This document shows, one piece after another, positions 2,982 through 52,486 of a stretch of DNA of 64,000 nucleotides; positions within the stretch are counted from its first letter, which is position 1, and each line of letters starts with the position of its first letter. The notes beneath the pieces were generated by a model. The model was not told the DNA's origin, searched no databases, and saw nothing but the letters and a program-made list of their open reading frames with translations. Source of the DNA: Bacteroidota bacterium (GTDB taxonomy: Bacteria; Bacteroidota; Bacteroidia; B-17B0; Aurantibacillaceae); assembly GCA_021323535.1 (NCBI GenBank), contig JAJONO010000028.1:1-64000 (forward strand). The letters run 5' to 3'. The position numbers and the translations under genes were made by a program.

Positions 2982-3024
2982 TAAACCGCAAAGACGCAAA
3001 GTTTTACGCAAAGACGCAATTCTT
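2982..3024. repeat. CGCAAAGACGCAAAG word repeat
   Basis: Reads AACCGCAAAGACGCAAAG, then TTTTACGCAAAGACGCAA: two copies of a 14- to 15-base double word about 20 bases apart. It lies immediately after the small gene ending at 2969 and before the secreted-protein gene at 3115. Confidence 0.7.
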
Positions 3025-10493: not shown

Positions 10494-11726
10494 ATGACAG
10501 GCAAATTACAGAGTAGAAATACTTCGCTTTTTTTTTACCACAGAGAAACAGAGACCACAGAGAATTTCTTCGGAATTTACCAATATTTCTTTTTCTTATC
10601 CATACTCTTTCTGTTCACTGTTTCTGCCTATTCACAAGATACTCTTTATGCTCGTTCCGTTATTAAAAAGTTAACGTCAAAAGAATGTTTTGGAAGAGGT
10701 TATCTGAATAATGGATTAGATGTTGCCGCTAAATACATTTCATCTGAATTAAAAAGACTGGAAGCAAAACCTTTATTTTCTTCGGGATATTATCAGTGGT
10801 TTGATTTTAATGTAAATACTTTTCCAAAAAACATTCTCGTAAAAATAAATAACAAACTTCTGAAGCCGGGAGAGGATTACATTATTTCTCCAGAAAGTAA
10901 CAGCCTGAAAGGGAAATTTACCATGACGAAAAAAGATTCCGTCACCTACTTTTCAGAGAGCGGAAGTCTTCCTTTAGTACTATCTATTAAAAAGAAACTC
11001 ACGTTTAGCGTAGCGGATTATGCCGCCGACTTTTGTCGGGTTGAATTGCTGGATAAAAAAGAATTCAAAGACATTAAATCCGCTGAAGTAAATATTCAGA
11101 ATAAGATCCTTGTAAAATACATTAATAAAAATATCTGCGCTTATCTCGATGGAAAACAGAATAACGACACTATGATCGTTTATTCAGCGCATTACGATCA
11201 TCTTGGTGGCTTGGGAAAGAAAACCTATTTCCCCGGCGCCAACGATAATGCCAGTGGTGTAAGTGTTCTGCTTAACCTTATTCAACATTACAAAAAGTAT
11301 CCGCCAAAATATAAAACCGTATTTATTTTTTTTGCAGGAGAAGAGGCAGGACTCATTGGTTCAAAATATTTTGTAGAGAGTAAAGTAATGGATCTTAAAA
11401 AAATAAAATTCCTCGTCAATCTTGATCTATTAGGAACGGGGGATGAAGGTATTATGGTAACGAACGGATATCTTCATGAGAAAGAGTTTAACATACTGAA
11501 TGAGATCAACAAAGAAAAAAACCTGGTGAAGGAGATCAAACGACGCGGTAAGGCCCAGAACAGTGATCATTACTGGTTTACAGAGGCAGGTGTTCCGGCA
11601 TTTTTTATTTACACTTTAGGGGGAATAAAAGCGTATCATGATATCTACGATATTGAAAAGACGTTACCGCTGACGGATTATGTGGATGTGGTGAAGTTGA
11701 TTACGCAGTTTGTGGAGAAACTTTAA
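10494..11726 (+). CDS. M28-family zinc aminopeptidase, exported
   Basis: 410 residues as drawn. Signal-like core FFFLSILFLFTVSAYSQ at about 32-48. Peptidase M28 ligands are all visible: His 233 in AHYDHLG, bridging Asp 251 in GANDNASG, general base Glu in AGEEAGLIGS (283-284), Asp 311 in NLDLLG, and a final His in YHDIYD. It would hydrolyse peptides in the periplasm or outside. Oddity: residues about 15-24 (FYHRETETTE) are encoded by a CACAGAGAAACAGAGACCAC word repeat (10537-10565), and no other ATG lies between it and the signal core. Either the repeat inserted behind the original start, or a non-ATG start near the signal core is used. Confidence 0.85.
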   Translation: MTGKLQSRNTSLFFYHRETETTENFFGIYQYFFFLSILFLFTVSAYSQDTLYARSVIKKLTSKECFGRGYLNNGLDVAAKYISSELKRLEAKPLFSSGYYQWFDFNVNTFPKNILVKINNKLLKPGEDYIISPESNSLKGKFTMTKKDSVTYFSESGSLPLVLSIKKKLTFSVADYAADFCRVELLDKKEFKDIKSAEVNIQNKILVKYINKNICAYLDGKQNNDTMIVYSAHYDHLGGLGKKTYFPGANDNASGVSVLLNLIQHYKKYPPKYKTVFIFFAGEEAGLIGSKYFVESKVMDLKKIKFLVNLDLLGTGDEGIMVTNGYLHEKEFNILNEINKEKNLVKEIKRRGKAQNSDHYWFTEAGVPAFFIYTLGGIKAYHDIYDIEKTLPLTDYVDVVKLITQFVEKL

Positions 11727-36290: not shown

Positions 36291-36785
36291 ATGATCATTG
36301 CTGCAGTTGTTGCCACCGACCTTAATAACGCCATTGGAAAAGACAATAAACTTTTGTGGCACTTACCCGCCGACCTTAAGTTTTTTAAGGAAACAACAAT
36401 GGGTTGCCCGATTATTATGGGGAGGAAAACCTACGAGAGCATTGGCCGTCTTTTACCAGGAAGAAGAAATATTATTATTACACGAAATACGGATTACAAG
36501 GTCGCCGGCGCTGAAATATTTACCACCGTTGAACACGCCATTGAAAGTTGTAAAACCGAGGATAAAGTGTTTGTGATTGGCGGTGCCGAAATTTTTAAGA
36601 TCACCGAAAAATTCACCGACATTATTTACCGTACACTCGTTAAAGAAAAATTTGAGGCCGATGTTTATGTGGATCCTATCGACGCTTTAGAATTTAAAAT
36701 GACCTGGGAAGAATGTCACACTGCCGACGAAAAAAATAAATTTGATTTTTGTTTCCAGAAATGGGAGAGAATTAAACAGGCCTGA
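36291..36785 (+). CDS. folA: Dihydrofolate reductase
   Basis: 164 residues, normal length. Start IIAAVVATDLNNAIGKDNKL, WHLPADLKFFK with the substrate-binding Asp 28, MGRKTYESIGRLLPGR for NADPH binding, and FVIGGAEIFK. It reduces dihydrofolate to tetrahydrofolate. It is a lone gene with its own promoter (36215-36249) and a hairpin-T-tract at its end; thymidylate synthase is not beside it. Confidence 0.95.
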   Translation: MIIAAVVATDLNNAIGKDNKLLWHLPADLKFFKETTMGCPIIMGRKTYESIGRLLPGRRNIIITRNTDYKVAGAEIFTTVEHAIESCKTEDKVFVIGGAEIFKITEKFTDIIYRTLVKEKFEADVYVDPIDALEFKMTWEECHTADEKNKFDFCFQKWERIKQA

Positions 36786-36807: not shown

Positions 36808-37734
36808 TTATCTTTTTTCGTTCTCCTGAACGCTTTTGGCATCACCCCGGATCTCTACCATTTTTACTGTCACCGCATATTCCTTAGGCTTTATTGTTGC
36901 TCCGTATTTCAGTGAATACGCTTTTGTGAACTCAGCTCCATAATACAAAATAAGCGAAGAATAAAATACCCATAATAGAAGGATCACCAGCGATCCGGCC
37001 GATCCATAAGCGCTTCCAAGATTACTGATCTTAATGTAAAAGGTGATGGCGAACTTTCCCAACATGAACAGGATCCCGGCAAACAAGGCTCCTGCCATTA
37101 CATCCTTCCACCGTATAACAGCATCTGGAAGTAATTTATAGATCAGTGCAAATAAAAACGCAACAACTAATAACGTTATCAGCAGATTAAGTATGTAAGC
37201 CAGCACAACTGTCATATGCGGGAATATTTCATGAAGTTTATCCATAAATCCCTCGAGCAATACATTTATAAGCAGGGAAACAAGTAATAAAAAACCCATT
37301 CCTGTTACCATGGCAAAGGACAATAACCTGATTTTGAGAATTTGCATCCAGCCCCGGTTCTTCTTCACGCTTAAACTCCAGATGGTATTAATTGAATCCT
37401 GGATCTCTGTGAACACAGTGGTAGCAGTTATTATTAAAATGATAAAACTTACAACAGCCATAAAATTATGGCCTTTGATAGAAGCATTTTTAATGATTTC
37501 CTGGATCTGGATAGCAGATTCTTCACCAACAATTCCGTTAATGTGTTTATAAATCACCCCTTCCACAGCATCACGTTCCCAGAAAAGATTAGCAAAAAAA
37601 ATAACCACCATCATCATGGGGCCCAAAGAAAAAATGGTAGCAAAGGAGAGTGAGGCGCTTAGTTTAAGTATTTTATGTGTGCCAAAGCCCTGGCTGGCCA
37701 TTTTGATTGTTTGCCATAATCCTTTTATTTTCAT
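36808..37734 (-). CDS. YihY/BrkB-family membrane protein
   Basis: 308 residues with six membrane segments: LSASLSFATIFSLGPMMMVV, HNFMAVVSFIILIITATTVF, FAMVTGMGFLLLVSLLINVL, VVLAYILNLLITLLVVAFLF, WKDVMAGALFAGILFMLGKF and GSLVILLLWVFYSSLILYYG. The family marks are the SLSFATxFSLxP opening and YGSAGSLVILLLWVFYSS with GAEFTKAY. Older annotations as ribonuclease BN are wrong for this family; its role is not settled. Single gene on the minus strand. Confidence 0.9.
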   Translation of the reverse strand: MKIKGLWQTIKMASQGFGTHKILKLSASLSFATIFSLGPMMMVVIFFANLFWERDAVEGVIYKHINGIVGEESAIQIQEIIKNASIKGHNFMAVVSFIILIITATTVFTEIQDSINTIWSLSVKKNRGWMQILKIRLLSFAMVTGMGFLLLVSLLINVLLEGFMDKLHEIFPHMTVVLAYILNLLITLLVVAFLFALIYKLLPDAVIRWKDVMAGALFAGILFMLGKFAITFYIKISNLGSAYGSAGSLVILLLWVFYSSLILYYGAEFTKAYSLKYGATIKPKEYAVTVKMVEIRGDAKSVQENEKR

Positions 37735-37890
37735 GAAAAGTGTTTCCTGATTGAGAAACCATCTTCCATCAACTCAAAAAACAAACCATCATTCACGTAA
37801 AATTAATGTTGCTATTTAAAATAATTAACAACTGAGTAATTTTTTACCTGAAATAAACGCGATTCCAGCCCTGATATCACTGGCCCAAAC

Positions 37891-37923
37891 ATTTTAGTCG
37901 TTTGTATTTAGAACGTCTAAAAT
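37891..37923. promoter_or_regulatory. Inverted repeat just upstream of the OmpA lipoprotein gene
   Basis: ATTTTAGTCG (37891-37900) and CGTCTAAAAT (37914-37923) pair at 9 of 10 positions around a 13-base spacer and end 7 bases before the ATG. The position suits an operator or an RNA element covering the start region. Confidence 0.4.
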
Positions 37924-37930
37924 TTAAGTG

Positions 37931-38770
37931 ATGAAAAAAATAATTTGTTTTACTGCCGCTGTAAGTCTTCTTCTTTCTGCTTGCGTTAGCCGAAAAAAAT
38001 ACAGGATCCTTGAATCTGAAAGAAATTCACTTAATCTAAGCTCAAAGAATTGTAATGATGAGCTTAAAAATGAAAAAGCGTTAACCGCTGATCTTACGAA
38101 CAAAAATAAAGCGTTATATGCACAGGTTGAGGATCTAAAAGCACGCAGCAATCAAATGCTTACTACACTACAGGATATGTCGGTACTTTCCGCTAAACAA
38201 GCAGAGAGCATTAAACAATCGTTAGACAATATTTCGGAAAAAGACGTTTATATCAGAAATCTTCAAACCGCGTTAAAACATAAGGATTCTCTGAATATGG
38301 CGCTAGTAATGAACCTGAAGAAGAACCTCGATGACATTAACGATAAAGATGTAAATATTAAAGTAGATAAAGGGGTTGTGTTCATAGACATCTCTGACAA
38401 AATGCTTTTTAATTCAGGAAAATACACGGTAACGTCAGACGCTAAAAAAGTGTTGGGCAAAGTAGCAAAAGTATTGAATACCTATCCCGATATTGAATTT
38501 ACTGTAGAAGGCCATACCGATACAATACCTATTCGCACTGAAGTTGTAGCCGATAACTGGGATTTAAGTGTGAAGCGTGCCACTGCAGTTGTAAGGTTAT
38601 TGCAGAAAGAATATAATATTTCACCGGCAAGAATGACCGCATCGGGTCACGGCCAGTATGCGCCAATTGCGCCAAATAACTCGGAAGAAGGAAGATCAAT
38701 AAACAGAAGAACGCGCATTATTATTCTTCCTCAACTGGATCAGTTTTTTAAGCTGATGGTGCAGAATTAG
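37931..38770 (+). CDS. OmpA-family lipoprotein
   Basis: 279 residues from ATG 37931 (a GTG one codon upstream is less likely). Lipobox LLSAC with Cys 19, then a long coiled coil (about 25-130, SKNCNDELKNEKALTADLTN to NISEKDVYIRNLQT), then an OmpA peptidoglycan-binding domain (about 145-270) with VEGHTDTIPI, NWDLSVKRATAVVRLL, MTASGHGQYAPIAPN and NRRTRIIILPQLD. The Asp and Arg that hold diaminopimelate are present (HTD, NRRTR). It should link the outer membrane to peptidoglycan. Single gene, preceded by an inverted repeat. Confidence 0.92.
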   Translation: MKKIICFTAAVSLLLSACVSRKKYRILESERNSLNLSSKNCNDELKNEKALTADLTNKNKALYAQVEDLKARSNQMLTTLQDMSVLSAKQAESIKQSLDNISEKDVYIRNLQTALKHKDSLNMALVMNLKKNLDDINDKDVNIKVDKGVVFIDISDKMLFNSGKYTVTSDAKKVLGKVAKVLNTYPDIEFTVEGHTDTIPIRTEVVADNWDLSVKRATAVVRLLQKEYNISPARMTASGHGQYAPIAPNNSEEGRSINRRTRIIILPQLDQFFKLMVQN

Positions 38771-38808
38771 GTTTGAATGAAGCGGAATTATTTGCAGGAT
38801 ATAGTTGT

Positions 38809-39099
38809 TTAGATTTGTGCCAAGCGGGAGTGTACCGTAAAACAATCAAAACAAATAAACGTATGTATCACCATACAGTCTGCAAGATCATACTTTTCTC
38901 CAATTGAATCTATCTGCGCATAAAAGCTCATTTGATTTTTACAACTTTCGCACCTGGGGTAATCTGTGTTATTAATATCTTCCGATTCTCCGCCTAAAAA
39001 GTGACGGGTCCCGATTTCCTTGTTCCAGGTATAACTTATTGCCTGTTTTTCCTCCTCGGTTTCAGGCATGGGCACAAGTTTAACTTTTGGTATCTTCAT
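38809..39099 (-). CDS. Small DUF1963-like protein with Cys pairs
   Basis: 96 residues. RHFLGGESED, then YPRCESCKNQMSFYAQIDSI and FICFDCFTVHSR read like the end of DUF1963/YwqG-type proteins, where a GGxPxW..C.xC...M.F..Q segment precedes a CxxC; two CxxC pairs could hold zinc. If so this is a shortened version, since full DUF1963 proteins are about 250 residues. Last gene of a minus-strand run of uncharacterised genes (38809-41343), 13 bases after its neighbour. Function unknown. Confidence 0.6.
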   Translation of the reverse strand: MKIPKVKLVPMPETEEEKQAISYTWNKEIGTRHFLGGESEDINNTDYPRCESCKNQMSFYAQIDSIGEKYDLADCMVIHTFICFDCFTVHSRLAQI

Positions 39100-39112
39100 T
39101 AGGGCTAAAGTT

Positions 39113-39583
39113 TTATTGAGTGTAATAGGTCGTTACTATATCATACATTTTTTCTCTCGAAACATTTTCGGGGATTTCAATGTCCGGAAATATATGAATG
39201 CTAAAAAACTCCTTATAATCACTCACAAACGATCTGAATTCTTCGTCGCTTAACTTTTCGAAATCAGAAACATCATCAGGATAAGCTCTATCGTCGAGAA
39301 GTTGTCTGATTTTCTCCGTTTTTACTTTTGGATTGTGATACCAGTCATCGCCATATTCTTCCCAGATGGAAATCATTCCTAATAAACGCAAAGGATCCTG
39401 CGCGTCGAAATTTCTTCCACCTTTTTTGGCCCAGTACGTGCAGTTTGCGGGATTTTCTTCAGAAGGATTAGGCCAGATCATAAGTTTAAAGCCTTTGCTC
39501 TTCAATACGGTTAAAGCGCAGTTGTAAATATTGGGATGATCTGTCATACGACAAATTCCGTCATCACTTTTTTCCTTTGCCAT
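39113..39583 (-). CDS. Acidic cytoplasmic protein of unknown function
   Basis: 156 residues from ATG 39581-39583, which overlaps the upstream gene by 20 bases; Met 13 (39545-39547, MTDHPNIYNCAL) is an alternative with no overlap. Acidic and rich in Trp and Tyr: KLMIWPNPSEENPANCTYWA, LRLLGMISIWEEYGDDWYH, YKEFFSIHIFPDIEIPENVS. No signal peptide, no named family recognised. The style (small, acidic, aromatic-rich, in a cluster of odd small genes) is like immunity proteins of polymorphic toxin systems, but no toxin gene is present, so this is only a suggestion. Confidence 0.6.
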   Translation of the reverse strand: MAKEKSDDGICRMTDHPNIYNCALTVLKSKGFKLMIWPNPSEENPANCTYWAKKGGRNFDAQDPLRLLGMISIWEEYGDDWYHNPKVKTEKIRQLLDDRAYPDDVSDFEKLSDEEFRSFVSDYKEFFSIHIFPDIEIPENVSREKMYDIVTTYYTQ

Positions 39584-40082
39584 CTTTATCGATTCCGTTT
39601 AAGAGTAACATCAGTTTTGTAAGTTCAGAAATATAAATGCTGTCCTGTTTTCCCACTGCATCTTTATTTTCCGGATTGCTGATTTGTGGATCGGGATGTA
39701 AAGGCGATTTCATTACGCGCCTGTTATTACAGGGATTATAACCATAAAGGCCGTTGGTTTTTGTAGAATACATCAGGAAACGGATTCCGATATACTGGTC
39801 GCGATGAGTGAAACGTTCTACAAAACCACAGGTGCCTTGCTTTGATTTTAAAAATACCGTGTCTTTTATTTTTCCCTTATGAATTCTCACAGGATAAAAT
39901 TTAAGAAGAAGATTATCTCCGTTTACATCAACAGGAACTTCGTCAACACTCACCAGCTTTCCTTCAAAAATAAGGTCCGATTTTTTGACGAGCGCCGCAG
40001 AAAGTTCCGAATCGTTACAAACGCAGGATAGACCCGCATAAGCAGCACAAATAATAATAGTTATTTTGAATAGTTGCTTCAT
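39564..40082 (-). CDS. Exported netrin/TIMP-like (NTR) protein
   Basis: 172 residues. A signal peptide ends near AYAGLSCVC, which could also act as a lipobox-like Cys. The order CVC, KKSDLIFEGKLVSVDEV, FYPVRIHKGKIKDTVFLKSK, TCGF, QYIGIRFLMYSTK, NPCNNRR matches the pattern of bacterial TIMP/NTR-like OB-fold domains (CxC, aDxVFxGxV, CG, YLxY, C). Those proteins are exported and of unclear function. ATGA overlap with the preceding gene and 20-base overlap with the next show tight co-translation. Confidence 0.6.
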   Translation of the reverse strand: MKQLFKITIIICAAYAGLSCVCNDSELSAALVKKSDLIFEGKLVSVDEVPVDVNGDNLLLKFYPVRIHKGKIKDTVFLKSKQGTCGFVERFTHRDQYIGIRFLMYSTKTNGLYGYNPCNNRRVMKSPLHPDPQISNPENKDAVGKQDSIYISELTKLMLLLNGIDKDGKGKK

Positions 40083-41173
40083 ATAATTCTTTTTGCCAGA
40101 TCCGTTAGTGTAATCATAGTTCCATCAGTTTTCAGACAACCCGCCCGTTTTAATTTTTCTATAGTGTCCATCACTTCCTGTTCATTTAGTATTTTTTCAT
40201 ACCGTTTACATATTGCTTCTACACTTGCCGATCCTTTACTTACATAATTAATAAAACGAAGCATAGTATCATCGCGGTAAGTCATTCCGTTTTTAAAACT
40301 AAAGACAAATATTTTTTCTTCGTTCAATGCTTTTTCAGCGGTTTCGATGCTGTACATGAAGTTGGAGATTTTGCGATGCTCGTCATTGAATTTCATTTCC
40401 AGTTCGTAGATCGTGCCATCGTAAGCTTTCTTGTCTATTGGCTTAAACTTACTCATTTTGGGATCTATCTCCGGCTTTTTATAATTATCGAGTAAAGGTT
40501 TCACGTCCTTACGGAGTTTTATATACAGGTCCCTGATCTCATCAGTGGTTATTTCTACCAGACTTACCAACTCGTTGCTCTTTCTGCTTTCTACAATATC
40601 CTTGATGTAAGGCGCTACCGTAAAGCTGTCGAAATAACTGCAATAACCATTGTTTTGATAAATGCCTTCCTTGTAAAGAAAAAAAGTCACACCGTCGTCA
40701 CATGGTTTTTCAGTTTTTATTTTTTCATTCCATTCACGTTCCAGGTGACAATGGTAACAAATGTCCTTTGGCAAATACTCGCTCGTTGTTGGAATAATCA
40801 GTTTATTACAATCGGCGCAGCTGATGGCGAGATGACGTTCAGTCCATCGCGGACAATCATCATCGGGATCATCAGGGGAAGGAAAGTAAAATGTGAGTCC
40901 GTATTTTTCTTCGGCGCGTTTCCCGATTTCCTTTGCAAGAGCTGCTTCGGGCCACGAAGGAACTTCGCCGGTGAATAAGCGAATATCGCCGCCAAACGTA
41001 ACTGTTCCCAGGTAATGACTTGTCTCACCACCTAAAATGTTTTTCTTTATATAAACGGAAAGACATAAGTACCAGCCCTGTGTATCACCATCCCACAGTG
41101 CTTCTAATACCGTTGGCTTACCCCCTAAAGTATTAATTTGTTGTTCTACCTGTTCGTATGAAGTAATAGACAT
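40079..41173 (-). CDS. Zinc-ribbon protein with possible C-terminal winged helix
   Basis: 364 residues, no signal peptide. A beta-rich N-terminal part (VLEALWDGDTQGWYLCLSVY) is followed by a Cys-rich knuckle CADCNKLIIPTT...ICYHCHLE (about 115-145), which could bind zinc. The C-terminal 75 residues (DDTMLRFINYVSKGSASVEA, VMDTIEKLKRAGCLKTDGTM, ITLTDLAKRII) look like a winged helix. Whole-protein family not recognised. ATG is 2 bases after the stop of a small membrane ORF and its stop overlaps the NTR-like gene by 4 bases. Confidence 0.6.
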   Translation of the reverse strand: MSITSYEQVEQQINTLGGKPTVLEALWDGDTQGWYLCLSVYIKKNILGGETSHYLGTVTFGGDIRLFTGEVPSWPEAALAKEIGKRAEEKYGLTFYFPSPDDPDDDCPRWTERHLAISCADCNKLIIPTTSEYLPKDICYHCHLEREWNEKIKTEKPCDDGVTFFLYKEGIYQNNGYCSYFDSFTVAPYIKDIVESRKSNELVSLVEITTDEIRDLYIKLRKDVKPLLDNYKKPEIDPKMSKFKPIDKKAYDGTIYELEMKFNDEHRKISNFMYSIETAEKALNEEKIFVFSFKNGMTYRDDTMLRFINYVSKGSASVEAICKRYEKILNEQEVMDTIEKLKRAGCLKTDGTMITLTDLAKRII

Positions 41174-41399: not shown

Positions 41400-42254
41400 C
41401 TAATCAATCATCAGTTTCTCCATCCCGGTATTAAAGAGCCCCGCATCACTTGCCTTCTTAAACATGAGCTTCACAGCCTTTGATCCCTCTTCTCCTAAAT
41501 CGACAGAAAATTTATTTACGTAAAGAGCAATATGTTTTTTCATTACCTCTTCACTCATTTCCTGGGCATGTTCCTTTACATAAGGCATTGAACTTTCGGG
41601 ATTGGCAAAAGCGAATTCCACACTTTTACGAATGAGGAGATTTACTTTTTGTTGAAGTTCAGCATCTAAATTTCTTTTGATCACAATTCCTCCGAGTGGG
41701 ATAGGCGCGTGTATCAACGAATCCCAATATTCTCCAAGGTCAATTATCTTTTTTAATCCTTTTTGCTCGTACGTAAAACGGTTTTCATGAATGATCAATC
41801 CGGCATCTACTTTTCCGGAAAGAACGGCATCTTCAATATCGCTGAACACCATCTCAATTTTATTTTTTAAGTGAGGATATGCCAGTGAGAATAAAAAATT
41901 AGCCGTGGTCATTTTTCCGGGAATGGCCACTTTGAGATCATTTGATAACTCAGGTATTCCATTCGTTGAACGTTGAACGTTGAACGTTGAACGACTGATG
42001 AGTAAAGGGCCGCAATTGAATCCCAACGCACTTCCTGCTCTTAACAGAATGTATCTATCAAGAACGTAAGCATAGGCATGAAAGCTCAGCTTAGTAATAT
42101 CCAACTCTCCTTTTAAAGCTTTTTGATTGAGTGTTTCCACGTCGCCCAGTTCAACGTCAAATTCCAATCCTTCAGTATCAATTTTTTTATGAATGAGCGC
42201 GTCAAAAATAAAACAGTCATTCGGACAAGGGGAATATCCTAAGGTAAGTTTCAT
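41400..42254 (-). CDS. mqnD: 1,4-dihydroxy-6-naphthoate synthase
   Basis: 284 residues, periplasmic-binding-protein fold used as an enzyme. LGYSPCPNDCFIFDALIHKK, KLSFHAYAYVLDRYILLRAG, GSALGFNCGPLL and VAIPGKMTTANFLFSLAYP fit MqnD, which cuts cyclic dehypoxanthine futalosine to 1,4-dihydroxy-6-naphthoate in futalosine-route menaquinone synthesis. The start overlaps mqnB by 4 bases (ATGA). Oddity: four copies of CGTTGAA on the plus strand (41965-41992) lie inside the gene and encode RSTFNVQRST in the loop just before the VAIPG strand. Confidence 0.9.
   Translation of the reverse strand: MKLTLGYSPCPNDCFIFDALIHKKIDTEGLEFDVELGDVETLNQKALKGELDITKLSFHAYAYVLDRYILLRAGSALGFNCGPLLISRSTFNVQRSTNGIPELSNDLKVAIPGKMTTANFLFSLAYPHLKNKIEMVFSDIEDAVLSGKVDAGLIIHENRFTYEQKGLKKIIDLGEYWDSLIHAPIPLGGIVIKRNLDAELQQKVNLLIRKSVEFAFANPESSMPYVKEHAQEMSEEVMKKHIALYVNKFSVDLGEEGSKAVKLMFKKASDAGLFNTGMEKLMID
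41965..41992. repeat. Tandem heptamer (CGTTGAA)x4 inside mqnD
   Basis: Four perfect copies of a 7-base unit, read in mqnD as TTCAACG. As 7 is not a multiple of 3, gain or loss of one unit would shift the frame. Confidence 0.9.
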
Positions 42255-43056: not shown

Positions 43057-43464
43057 ATGATTTACCTCACCCGCCACGAACATTTTAATGCCGCACACAA
43101 GCTCTATAACCCTGAATGGAGTGAAGAAAAAAATCTTGAAATCTTTGGTAAATGTGCGAATGCTAACTGGCACGGACATAATTACGAGCTTATTGTTACG
43201 ATTAAAGGCGAAATTAATCCTGAAACAGGTTTTCTTATGGATGCTAAAATATTAAGCGCTATTTTACAGGAACACGTATGTGAGGTAATCGATCATAAAA
43301 ACCTGAACATGGACGTTGATTTCATGAAAGGAAAACTCGCCAGCACCGAAAATCTGGCAGTTGGTATCTGGAACCAGATTGTCCCACATCTCCCTACAAA
43401 CGTTAAATTACACTGCGTAAAGCTCTACGAAACACCACGGATTTGCGTGGAATATTTCGGGTAA
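43057..43464 (+). CDS. 6-pyruvoyl-tetrahydropterin synthase / QueD-like protein, paralogue 1
   Basis: 135 residues. Zinc ligands in EHFNAAH and WHGHNYE, catalytic Cys in FGKCANAN, and the family DHKNLNMD and ASTENLAVGIWNQI segments are all present. It acts on dihydroneopterin triphosphate to make either 6-pyruvoyl-tetrahydropterin or, in the queuosine route, 6-carboxy-tetrahydropterin. Which one cannot be told. A -7-like TAAATTTG at 43044-43051 lies so close to the ATG that a leaderless transcript is possible. Its paralogue starts 269 bases downstream. Confidence 0.85.
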   Translation: MIYLTRHEHFNAAHKLYNPEWSEEKNLEIFGKCANANWHGHNYELIVTIKGEINPETGFLMDAKILSAILQEHVCEVIDHKNLNMDVDFMKGKLASTENLAVGIWNQIVPHLPTNVKLHCVKLYETPRICVEYFG

Positions 43465-43732: not shown

Positions 43733-44146
43733 ATGAGCAAGAAAATTGCCGTATATCGCAAGGAGCATTTTAATGCTGCCCATCGTTTGCACAATCCTGC
43801 ATTGAGCGACTCTGAAAATGCCATGCTCTTCGGAAAATGCAATCACCCGAACTATCACGGTCATAATTACGAACTCATCGTAAAGGTAACAGGAGAAGTT
43901 GATCCTAAAACAGGATACGTGATCGATATGAAATTACTTGGCGATCTTGTAAAAAAAGAAGTGATCGAAAAATTTGATCATAGAAACCTGAACCTTGATA
44001 CTAAAGAATTTAAAGAGCTGAATCCAACTGCCGAAAATATCGCCATGGTGATTCATAACCTGCTTGAACCAAAACTGGACAAGCGTTACGAACTAAAAAT
44101 TATCCTTTATGAAACAGAAAGAAATTTTGTTGAATTCCCTGCTTAA
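43733..44146 (+). CDS. 6-pyruvoyl-tetrahydropterin synthase / QueD-like protein, paralogue 2
   Basis: 137 residues with KEHFNAAHRLHNPA, FGKCNHPNYHGHNYE and DHRNLNLD, PTAENIAMVIHNLL. All zinc and catalytic residues of the family are kept. It differs from paralogue 1 at many positions, so the duplication is old. The end overlaps folE by 38 bases, which makes folE-PTPS a coupled unit: FolE would supply dihydroneopterin triphosphate directly to this enzyme. A biopterin-type cofactor or queuosine precursor are the likely end products. Confidence 0.87.
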   Translation: MSKKIAVYRKEHFNAAHRLHNPALSDSENAMLFGKCNHPNYHGHNYELIVKVTGEVDPKTGYVIDMKLLGDLVKKEVIEKFDHRNLNLDTKEFKELNPTAENIAMVIHNLLEPKLDKRYELKIILYETERNFVEFPA

Positions 44147-49580: not shown

Positions 49581-51815
49581 ATGACTACAACTTCATACAA
49601 AGACCAGCTTACCACTGTTGAAACGGCTAAAAAATTAGGATTACTTCCTGAAGAATTTGAGAAGATCAAAACTACCCTCGGCAGGGTGCCAAACTTTACC
49701 GAATTATCTATTTACTCAGTGATGTGGAGCGAGCATTGCTCTTACAAAAATTCCATCATCTGGCTGAAAACTTTACCGAAAGATGGTCCGCACATGCTCG
49801 CAAAAGCAGGTGAAGAAAATGCAGGGCTGGTTGATATTGGCGATGGATTAGCCTGCGCTTTTAAAATTGAAAGTCATAACCACCCAAGCGCGCTTGAGCC
49901 TTATCAGGGAGCTGCTACAGGTGTGGGTGGAATTAACCGCGATATTTTCACAATGGGCGCCCGTCCTATTGCACAAATGAATTCATTACGTTTTGGAGAT
50001 ATTAATTCTGATAAAACAAAGTGGCTCATCAAGGGTGTTGTAAAAGGAATTGGTGATTACGGAAACGCGTTCGGAATCCCTACTGTTGGCGGAGAAGTTT
50101 TCTTCGATGATTCATTCAACGTAAATCCGCTCGTGAATGCCATGAGCGTTGGTATTGTGAAAAAAGGAGAAACCATCAGCGCTACTTCTTATGGCGAAGG
50201 AAATCCGGTTTTCATTGTAGGATCTTCTACCGGAAAAGACGGAATCGCAGGCGCGGCCTTTGCAAGTAAAGATATAACAGAGGAATCGTCGAAAGATTTA
50301 CCTGCCGTTCAGGTGGGCGATCCATTCCAGGAAAAATTATTGCTCGAAGCTACTCTCGAAATTATTCAAACCGGCGCCGTAGTTGGTATGCAGGATATGG
50401 GCGCGGCCGGAATTACCTGCAGCACAAGCGAAATGAGCGCTAAAGGAGAACACGGTATGGAAGTGTGGCTCGACAAAGTGCCAACACGCCAGGCTGGAAT
50501 GCATCCTTTCGAAATACTTCTCAGCGAATCGCAGGAACGCATGCTTGTTGTTGTAAAAAAAGGAAGAGAAGACGAAGTGAAAAAGATCTTTGATAAGTGG
50601 GACCTTAACTGCGTTCAGATCGCTACAGTTACCAAAGGTGATCGTTTAAAATATTATTTCCACGGCGAACTTGTTGCCGATGTTCCTGCAGGATCATTGG
50701 TGCTTGGTGGTGATGCGCCGGTTTACAAAAGAGAATACAAGGAGCCTGCTTCTTTTGCAGAATCTAAAAAATTCAACATTACTTCTATCCAGGAACCAAA
50801 AGATTTAAAAGCGGTAATGATACATCTTGCGTCACATCCAAATCTTGCAAGCAAACGTTGGGTATACAATCAATACGATAGCATGGTGGGAACTATAAAC
50901 ATGAGCACCAACAAGCCAAGCGATGCTGCGATCGTAAATATTAAGGGCAGTAAAAAAGCGTTAGCAATGAGCGTTGATTGCAATAGCCGTTACGTGAACG
51001 CTGATCCCGAAACAGGATGCGCCATTGCAGTTTGCGAAGCTGCAAGAAACATTGTGTGCAGCGGAGGTTTACCAAGCGCGGTGACCAACTGCCTCAATTT
51101 CGGGAACCCATACAATCCTGAAGTATACTGGCAATTTGTTGGTTCCATTAAAGGAATGGGAGCAGCTTGTTTAAAATTACAAACTCCTGTTACCGGTGGA
51201 AATGTAAGTTTCTATAATCAATCAAGCTATGAAGGGCCTGTGTTCCCTACTCCAACAATTGGTATGATCGGAATTGTGGAAGATAAAAAACATCAAACCA
51301 CTTTAGATTTCAAAAACGAAGGCGACCTGGTTTATTTACTCGGAAAATCTCAGAACGATATCAGTTCTTCAGAATATGTTTACTCATTTCACAAAGTAAA
51401 AAACACACCGGCTCCTTATTTTAATCTTGATGAAGAACATACTTTACAAAAAGGGATTACTTCAGCTATTCAAAAAGGATTAGTGAAAAGCGCGCATGAT
51501 GTAAGCGACGGCGGTTTATTCCTCACTCTTTTCGAAAGCGCTTTACATGGCAATGCAGGATTTGAAATAAAAACAAATTCTTCATTCAGAAAAGATGCTT
51601 ATTTATTCGGTGAAGCTCAGAGTCGCGCTGTGATCAGCGTTGCTTCTTCTAACAAAGATGCATTTGAAGCTGATCTGAAAAAATCAGGTGTTCATTTTGA
51701 ATTGATTGGAACAGTAAAAGGAAAAAATGCGGTGATAGACGGAACAGATTTCGGAAGCGTAAACGATTTCGCTGTTTTATACAAACTCTCTGTGTTCTCT
51801 GTTTCTCTGCGGTAG
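49581..51815 (+). CDS. purL: Phosphoribosylformylglycinamidine synthase, small PurL type
   Basis: 744 residues, the length of the three-component (PurLQS) large subunit. YSVMWSEHCSYKNS, the nucleotide-binding IESHNHPSALEPYQGAATGV, GGEVFFDDSF, MQDMGAAGITCS and SDGGLFLTLFE fit the family. It uses ATP and ammonia from PurQ to amidate FGAR in purine synthesis. Oddity: the last 10 residues (KLSVFSVSLR) are encoded by a CTCTCTGTGTTCTCTGTTTC word repeat (51786-51815) and the expected closing helix after FGSVNDFAVLYK is gone, so the native C-terminus seems to have been replaced. Confidence 0.92.
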   Translation: MTTTSYKDQLTTVETAKKLGLLPEEFEKIKTTLGRVPNFTELSIYSVMWSEHCSYKNSIIWLKTLPKDGPHMLAKAGEENAGLVDIGDGLACAFKIESHNHPSALEPYQGAATGVGGINRDIFTMGARPIAQMNSLRFGDINSDKTKWLIKGVVKGIGDYGNAFGIPTVGGEVFFDDSFNVNPLVNAMSVGIVKKGETISATSYGEGNPVFIVGSSTGKDGIAGAAFASKDITEESSKDLPAVQVGDPFQEKLLLEATLEIIQTGAVVGMQDMGAAGITCSTSEMSAKGEHGMEVWLDKVPTRQAGMHPFEILLSESQERMLVVVKKGREDEVKKIFDKWDLNCVQIATVTKGDRLKYYFHGELVADVPAGSLVLGGDAPVYKREYKEPASFAESKKFNITSIQEPKDLKAVMIHLASHPNLASKRWVYNQYDSMVGTINMSTNKPSDAAIVNIKGSKKALAMSVDCNSRYVNADPETGCAIAVCEAARNIVCSGGLPSAVTNCLNFGNPYNPEVYWQFVGSIKGMGAACLKLQTPVTGGNVSFYNQSSYEGPVFPTPTIGMIGIVEDKKHQTTLDFKNEGDLVYLLGKSQNDISSSEYVYSFHKVKNTPAPYFNLDEEHTLQKGITSAIQKGLVKSAHDVSDGGLFLTLFESALHGNAGFEIKTNSSFRKDAYLFGEAQSRAVISVASSNKDAFEADLKKSGVHFELIGTVKGKNAVIDGTDFGSVNDFAVLYKLSVFSVSLR

Positions 51816-51846: not shown

Positions 51847-52486
51847 ATGCCAAGTAAACTCGAAAAATTTGCCGAACTCGAAACTTTTGGAAATTGTTTC
51901 CCTCTGCATTTTGAGAACATTGTAGCCGGCCTTCCATTAAAAGGAAAATGGCGCAGTGATTTTTTCAAAAATGAAAATCCTGTTGTTGTAGAATTAGGGT
52001 GTGGAAAATAACAAGGACAAAAATTACATTGGCGTTGATGTAAAAGGTAACCGTATCTGGACCGGCGCTAAACATGCCGTTGATAATAAATTAAACAACG
52101 TTGCTTTCATAAGAACACGTATTGATTTTATTGAGCATTGTTTTGGTGAAAATGAAGTTGACGAGATCTGGATCACGTTTCCTGATCCGCAACCACAAAA
52201 AACAAGAGCAAGAAAACGACTTACGCATCCTATGTTTCTTGAACGTTATAAAAAATTTCTGAAGAAGGATGGAATTGTTCATTTGAAGACAGACAATACG
52301 GGCCTTTACGAATACACGCTGGAAACCATAAAAGAAAATAAGCTTCCCCTGATCTGGCACACAAACGATCTGTATAAAAATTGTCCTGCCGACAGAAAAG
52401 AACTTACGTCAATAAAAACTTATTACGAAAAACTGTTTACTGGTAAGGGTGAGGATATTAAATATATTCTGTTTAAACTTACTTAG
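51847..52486 (+). pseudogene. trmB: tRNA (guanine-N7)-methyltransferase, frameshifted by a deletion
   Basis: From ATG 51847 the frame encodes KLEKFAELETFGNCFPLHFE and ends VVVELGCGK with TAA at 52009-52011. The rest of the protein continues in another frame from about 52004 (NNKDKNYIGVDVKGNRIW, TRIDFIEHCF, WITFPDPQPQ, to 52486). Compared with normal TrmB, about 8-10 residues after ELGCGK (the GEYTxxLA part of the SAM-binding loop) are missing. A loss of roughly 29 bases between GAAAA direct repeats would explain it. Motif I of the SAM site is destroyed, so the gene is probably dead, unless the read or assembly is wrong. It ends overlapping the opposite-strand gene by 8 bases. Confidence 0.85.

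Follow-up and report, generated by a model that had tools for sequence, protein, structure and literature searches.

TrmB, the tRNA (guanosine46-N7)-methyltransferase (NF001080, TIGR00091, PF02390), is the closest described system for the locus reported here, and its absence has been described in several bacteria. In E. coli, trmB is nonessential, and according to the excerpted text of PMC10130221 the mutant grows more slowly in hydrogen peroxide; the excerpted text of PMC7026641 records no growth difference for E. coli without TrmB, together with a decrease of acp3U to about 40%. Peroxide sensitivity of Pseudomonas aeruginosa and high-temperature growth defects of Thermus thermophilus, each without TrmB, are cited in the excerpts of these papers (PMC10130221/PMC7026641). 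A T. thermophilus trmB disruptant is described in the excerpt of PMC6320965, and for Acinetobacter baumannii TrmB is termed critical for stress responses in that of PMC10653896. As E. coli is viable without trmB and other bacteria are impaired, the gene, though useful, can be dispensed with by E. coli at least. A second point of comparison is the recent short-deletion pseudogene, slippage- or microhomology-mediated, which we take to be the relevant category for the lesion itself.

The gene analyzed here lies in a 64,000-nt stretch of DNA (the window), which comprises bases 1–64000 of contig C76 in a 5.3-Mb genome, probably that of an uncultured Bacteroidetes, of 141 contigs and 97.5% completeness. 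The features needed for the argument are as follows.

49581..51815, + strand: purL (FGAM synthase subunit PurL); family match, with last residues unlike those of relatives
51789..51813, + strand: arm of a dispersed repeat; last eight purL codons and first base of the stop codon
51847..52011, + strand: trmB 5′ fragment; 54 codons, ending VVVELGCGK and a stop; NF001080 match
52001..52486, + strand: trmB 3′ fragment; +1 frame; without motif I or the segment that follows it; matches to NF001080, PF02390 and chains 7nyb/2fca
52003..52012, + strand: deletion junction GGAAAATAAC; 29 nt absent relative to all 28 extracted relatives

At the thresholds used, no RNA feature or tRNA was found at the trmB site within the window.

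The two trmB fragments were characterized from their ORF translations and from profile and structure searches. The 5′ ORF begins MPSK and ends VVVELGCGK, with TAA following at 52009–52011, and matched the NF001080 TrmB profile over positions 5–57 of 224 (E 3e-13). This match is under the family cut-off, as expected of a short piece, and a Pfam search of the same fragment gave no match. The 3′ ORF, read in the +1 frame, runs from NNKDKNYIGVDVKGNR... through the C-terminal end of TrmB, and has a possible GTG start at 52001, overlapping the end of the 5′ ORF. It matched NF001080 over profile positions 66–222 of 224 (E 2.6e-60), with the C-terminal part complete, as well as PF02390 and, among solved structures, TrmB chains, the best being 7nyb and 2fca. 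Both fragments match NF001080, adjoining and in order, so that the profile match is spread over two frames and neither covers its whole length. A frame stop right after ELGCGK with resumption one frame over had been claimed in the initial annotation of this DNA, and both ORFs bear this out, coordinates included.

For measurement of the lesion, trmB was extracted from 28 of the 29 relatives with returned loci, L016 being left out because its contig ends within the gene. Between ELGCG[K/R] and the next conserved motif, [K/R]N[Y/F][I/V]G, all 28 relatives have 13 codons (39 nt), as against 10 nt in the window; 29 nt have therefore been lost, in agreement with the ∼29-base deletion proposed earlier. 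The lost stretch is the counterpart of GEYTxGLAx and makes up most of the SAM-binding loop (about nine residues, where 8–10 had been claimed), and its removal shifts the reading frame. The conserved ELGCG[K/R]GEY, which we take to be motif I, is incomplete: the window ends at ELGCGK, and GEY comes next in 28/28 relatives. Within motif I of class I methyltransferases, the lost residues come after the first glycines. Unlike intact TrmB, the window has thus lost both 29 nt and the frame within this motif, and it encodes no complete protein.

From the normal start, translation would stop after 54 residues, and the most that the downstream ORF would yield is a polypeptide lacking motif I and presumably unable to bind SAM. 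That the two ORFs together still make a working enzyme, whether the ribosome shifts to the +1 frame at AAA TAA or re-initiates at GTG 52001 and two pieces assemble, would fit the 3′ ORF being open and well conserved, with its overlap of the 5′ ORF end and its possible start codon. A frameshift product, however, would still be without about nine residues (GEY[T/S]xGLxx), among them the glycine after ELGCG[K/R] that is kept in 28/28 relatives, and we regard a working two-ORF enzyme as very improbable. Judged from the sequence, neither the frameshift product nor the 3′ ORF should bind SAM. The cell would then be left without m7G46 in its tRNA, a loss of a kind that E. coli tolerates.

The deletion is best explained as a single 29-nt event, by replication slippage or end-joining, which would most likely have taken place between short A-rich stretches flanking the SAM-loop codons. 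A GAAAA microhomology had been suggested for this junction. A single GGAAAA is left there, and any microhomology has to be reconstructed from relatives that are at most 77% identical across trmB, the direct repeat of the intact allele not being visible in the window. The ninth lost codon is Gln/Glu in 21 of the 28 relatives and the tenth is Lys/Asn in 22, and an A-rich overlap is therefore likely; a ninth codon GAA or CAA followed by AAT, as in L011, L009 and L025, would give an overlap of 5 or 4 bases. When the same 29-nt deletion was drawn in each of the 28 relatives, the overlap was 0 nt in six, 1 nt in five, 2 nt in three, 3 nt in 11 and 4 nt in three, that is, at least 3 nt in 14/28 and 5 nt in none. 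The specific GAAAA microhomology is plausible but not provable because the intact allele is gone. As in recent short-deletion pseudogenes, the deletion is short, lies beside an A-rich stretch and is out of frame relative to intact orthologues (28/28), with the rest of the gene undecayed. Measured against that category the window trmB shows nothing unusual.

The distribution of trmB was then considered among relatives and in the class. The gene was present in 58 of 59 relatives, the exception (G032) being a genome that is 60% complete, and its frame was open for at least 221 codons in 57 of the 58, the copy in G031 being cut by a contig end. An NF001080 search of a Bacteroidia sample, requested at ≥95% completeness, gave a match over the TrmB cut-off in 239 of 246 genomes, including the present one; the other seven comprised three with no match and four with weak matches. 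In at least five of the listed matches (G271, G197, G077, G093 and G146) there is a single stop within the region of the match. Loss of trmB in Bacteroidia is thus uncommon, and broken copies may occur in other genomes of the class. A genus-wide deletion was ruled out for the relatives seen, as those extracted keep the 39 nt. The statement in the initial annotation that trmB is normally kept holds; the weight it attached to a loss is high for a gene without which E. coli is viable. Separately, locus L050, on a contig labeled Candidatus Saccharibacteria, has a trmB 71% identical to that of the window and is perhaps a misbinned Bacteroidetes contig.

A search for a second trmB and for an alternative allele had also been proposed, and neither was found in this assembly by profile and DNA searches; with the genome at 97.5% completeness, the result for a second trmB covers the assembled part. 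DNA searching of the genome with the trmB sequence returned this place only. With PF02390, four matches in the genome were flagged as exceeding the 24-bit Pfam cut-off, trmB scoring 81.7 bits and the other three 22.4–24.6 bits, one of these reaching 25 only with its neighbors, over the first 56–77 profile positions. These three were rejected as TrmB and assigned to other methyltransferases, since their best NCBIfam matches were to cyclopropane fatty acid synthases, TrmN and UbiE/MenG, of which, among the matches shown, only the UbiE/MenG one was over its family cut-off. The cyclopropane-fatty-acid-synthase-like match also hits TrmB, at 24.8 bits compared with a cut-off of 132. Five NF001080 matches were counted in this genome, none of them among the matches listed.

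To place the loss in time, the remaining trmB was compared with the same 28 relatives. One change was found in the 78 columns that are invariant among them (leave-one-out range, 0–2), and the median dN of the window trmB versus relatives was 0.187, the relatives' own range being 0.168–0.246. No dN/dS ratio is claimed because dS, among the eight nearest pairs printed, was undefined for six and exceeded 2.5 for the remaining two. With no excess change at conserved positions and dN within the range of the relatives, an old decaying pseudogene was ruled out. Since the remaining gene has not decayed, the deletion, as far as its sequence indicates, either is recent or does not exist in the population, the allele then being an artefact of assembly or strain.

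An undecayed remainder would equally be expected if the population keeps an intact trmB and the deletion either arose as an error of assembly or consensus or belongs to a minority strain whose allele the assembler picked. In keeping with such an origin, the assembly is split into 141 contigs, and a metagenome-assembled label is borne by 14 of the 15 nearest loci that carry a name, among the best 80. The surrounding genes, on the other hand, argue for an accurate consensus. The 29 window genes at 30.9–64 kb were compared with ten stretches from five related genomes, relatives' ORFs of <120 codons being left out, and 21 had a same-strand counterpart and eight had none; the window genes of 1–30.8 kb had no counterpart in the ten stretches and lie outside this frame comparison. 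Of the 21 comparable genes, 20 align without a change of frame; trmB is the sole exception, and its split is the same with each of the trmB genes compared from four relatives. Poor sequence quality was thereby ruled out for the compared part of the region, and the local error rate is low. The trmB DNA matches the genome once, so there is no repeat of trmB to explain a misassembly; to our knowledge short-read data do not usually produce a false 29-nt gap where no long repeat is present, and an alternative allele was not found in the assembly. An error or minority variant is on balance unlikely.

Our preferred reading, to which we assign a probability of roughly 0.78, is that trmB of this lineage, or of the assembled strain, has been inactivated by one recent 29-nt deletion and is an ordinary pseudogene. 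The further step, that loss of TrmB became fixed very recently in a lineage of Bacteroidetes, seen here before any decay and at the first stage of losing m7G46 from all of its tRNAs, is a possibility that we hold to be less likely than not. If real and fixed, the deletion would provide a natural trmB-null bacterium, showing which tRNAs and stresses make m7G46 worth keeping; at present it amounts to a single fragmented assembly in which a gene that E. coli can spare has recently become a pseudogene.

The initial annotation had linked the trmB lesion with the altered end of purL as signs of local instability. In the window purL ends YKLSVFSVSLR, and the C terminus is YNTSIENKLN in 4/28 relatives where the script recognized purL just upstream of trmB; the PurL family match extends to residue 720 of 744 and profile position 697 of 723. 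The pattern of 51789–51813 gave ten genome matches at ≤2 mismatches, the backward control giving none. A looser arm pattern gave 36 matches in the same genome (control, 0), 0–2 per genome in 24 others of the genus and at most 12 in other class members, with two matches of the backward control over all 41 genomes. Four pairs of arms in opposite orientation, 61–65 nt apart from start to start, were found on contigs C54, C58, C98 and C135, and by eye L006 and L025 have similar inverted arms in the purL–trmB gap, with a normal purL end. Most likely, given these copies, the altered purL end comes from a dispersed repeat element of which one arm was left there. Because the purL end carries a repeat arm and so records a different kind of event, there is little support for a cause shared with trmB, and the proposed link is weak. 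A text search for short repeat strings gave none on such repeats among the papers listed and is too narrow to call the element unpublished. Other arms in the window are at 10537–10561 (minus strand) and 2985–3001, and the element is often inverted. The former arm lies inside the predicted N terminus of ORF 10494–11726, and the true start of that ORF is therefore probably further downstream.

Two further observations were made in the region used for the frame comparison. Six ORFs at 36808–41173 are without a counterpart in the compared stretches, and in G016 the homologues of 36291–36785 and 41400–42254 adjoin. The genes at 43057–43464 and 43733–44146, which we take to be 6-pyruvoyl-tetrahydropterin synthase-like, are adjoining related short genes, an arrangement also present in G016 and G029.
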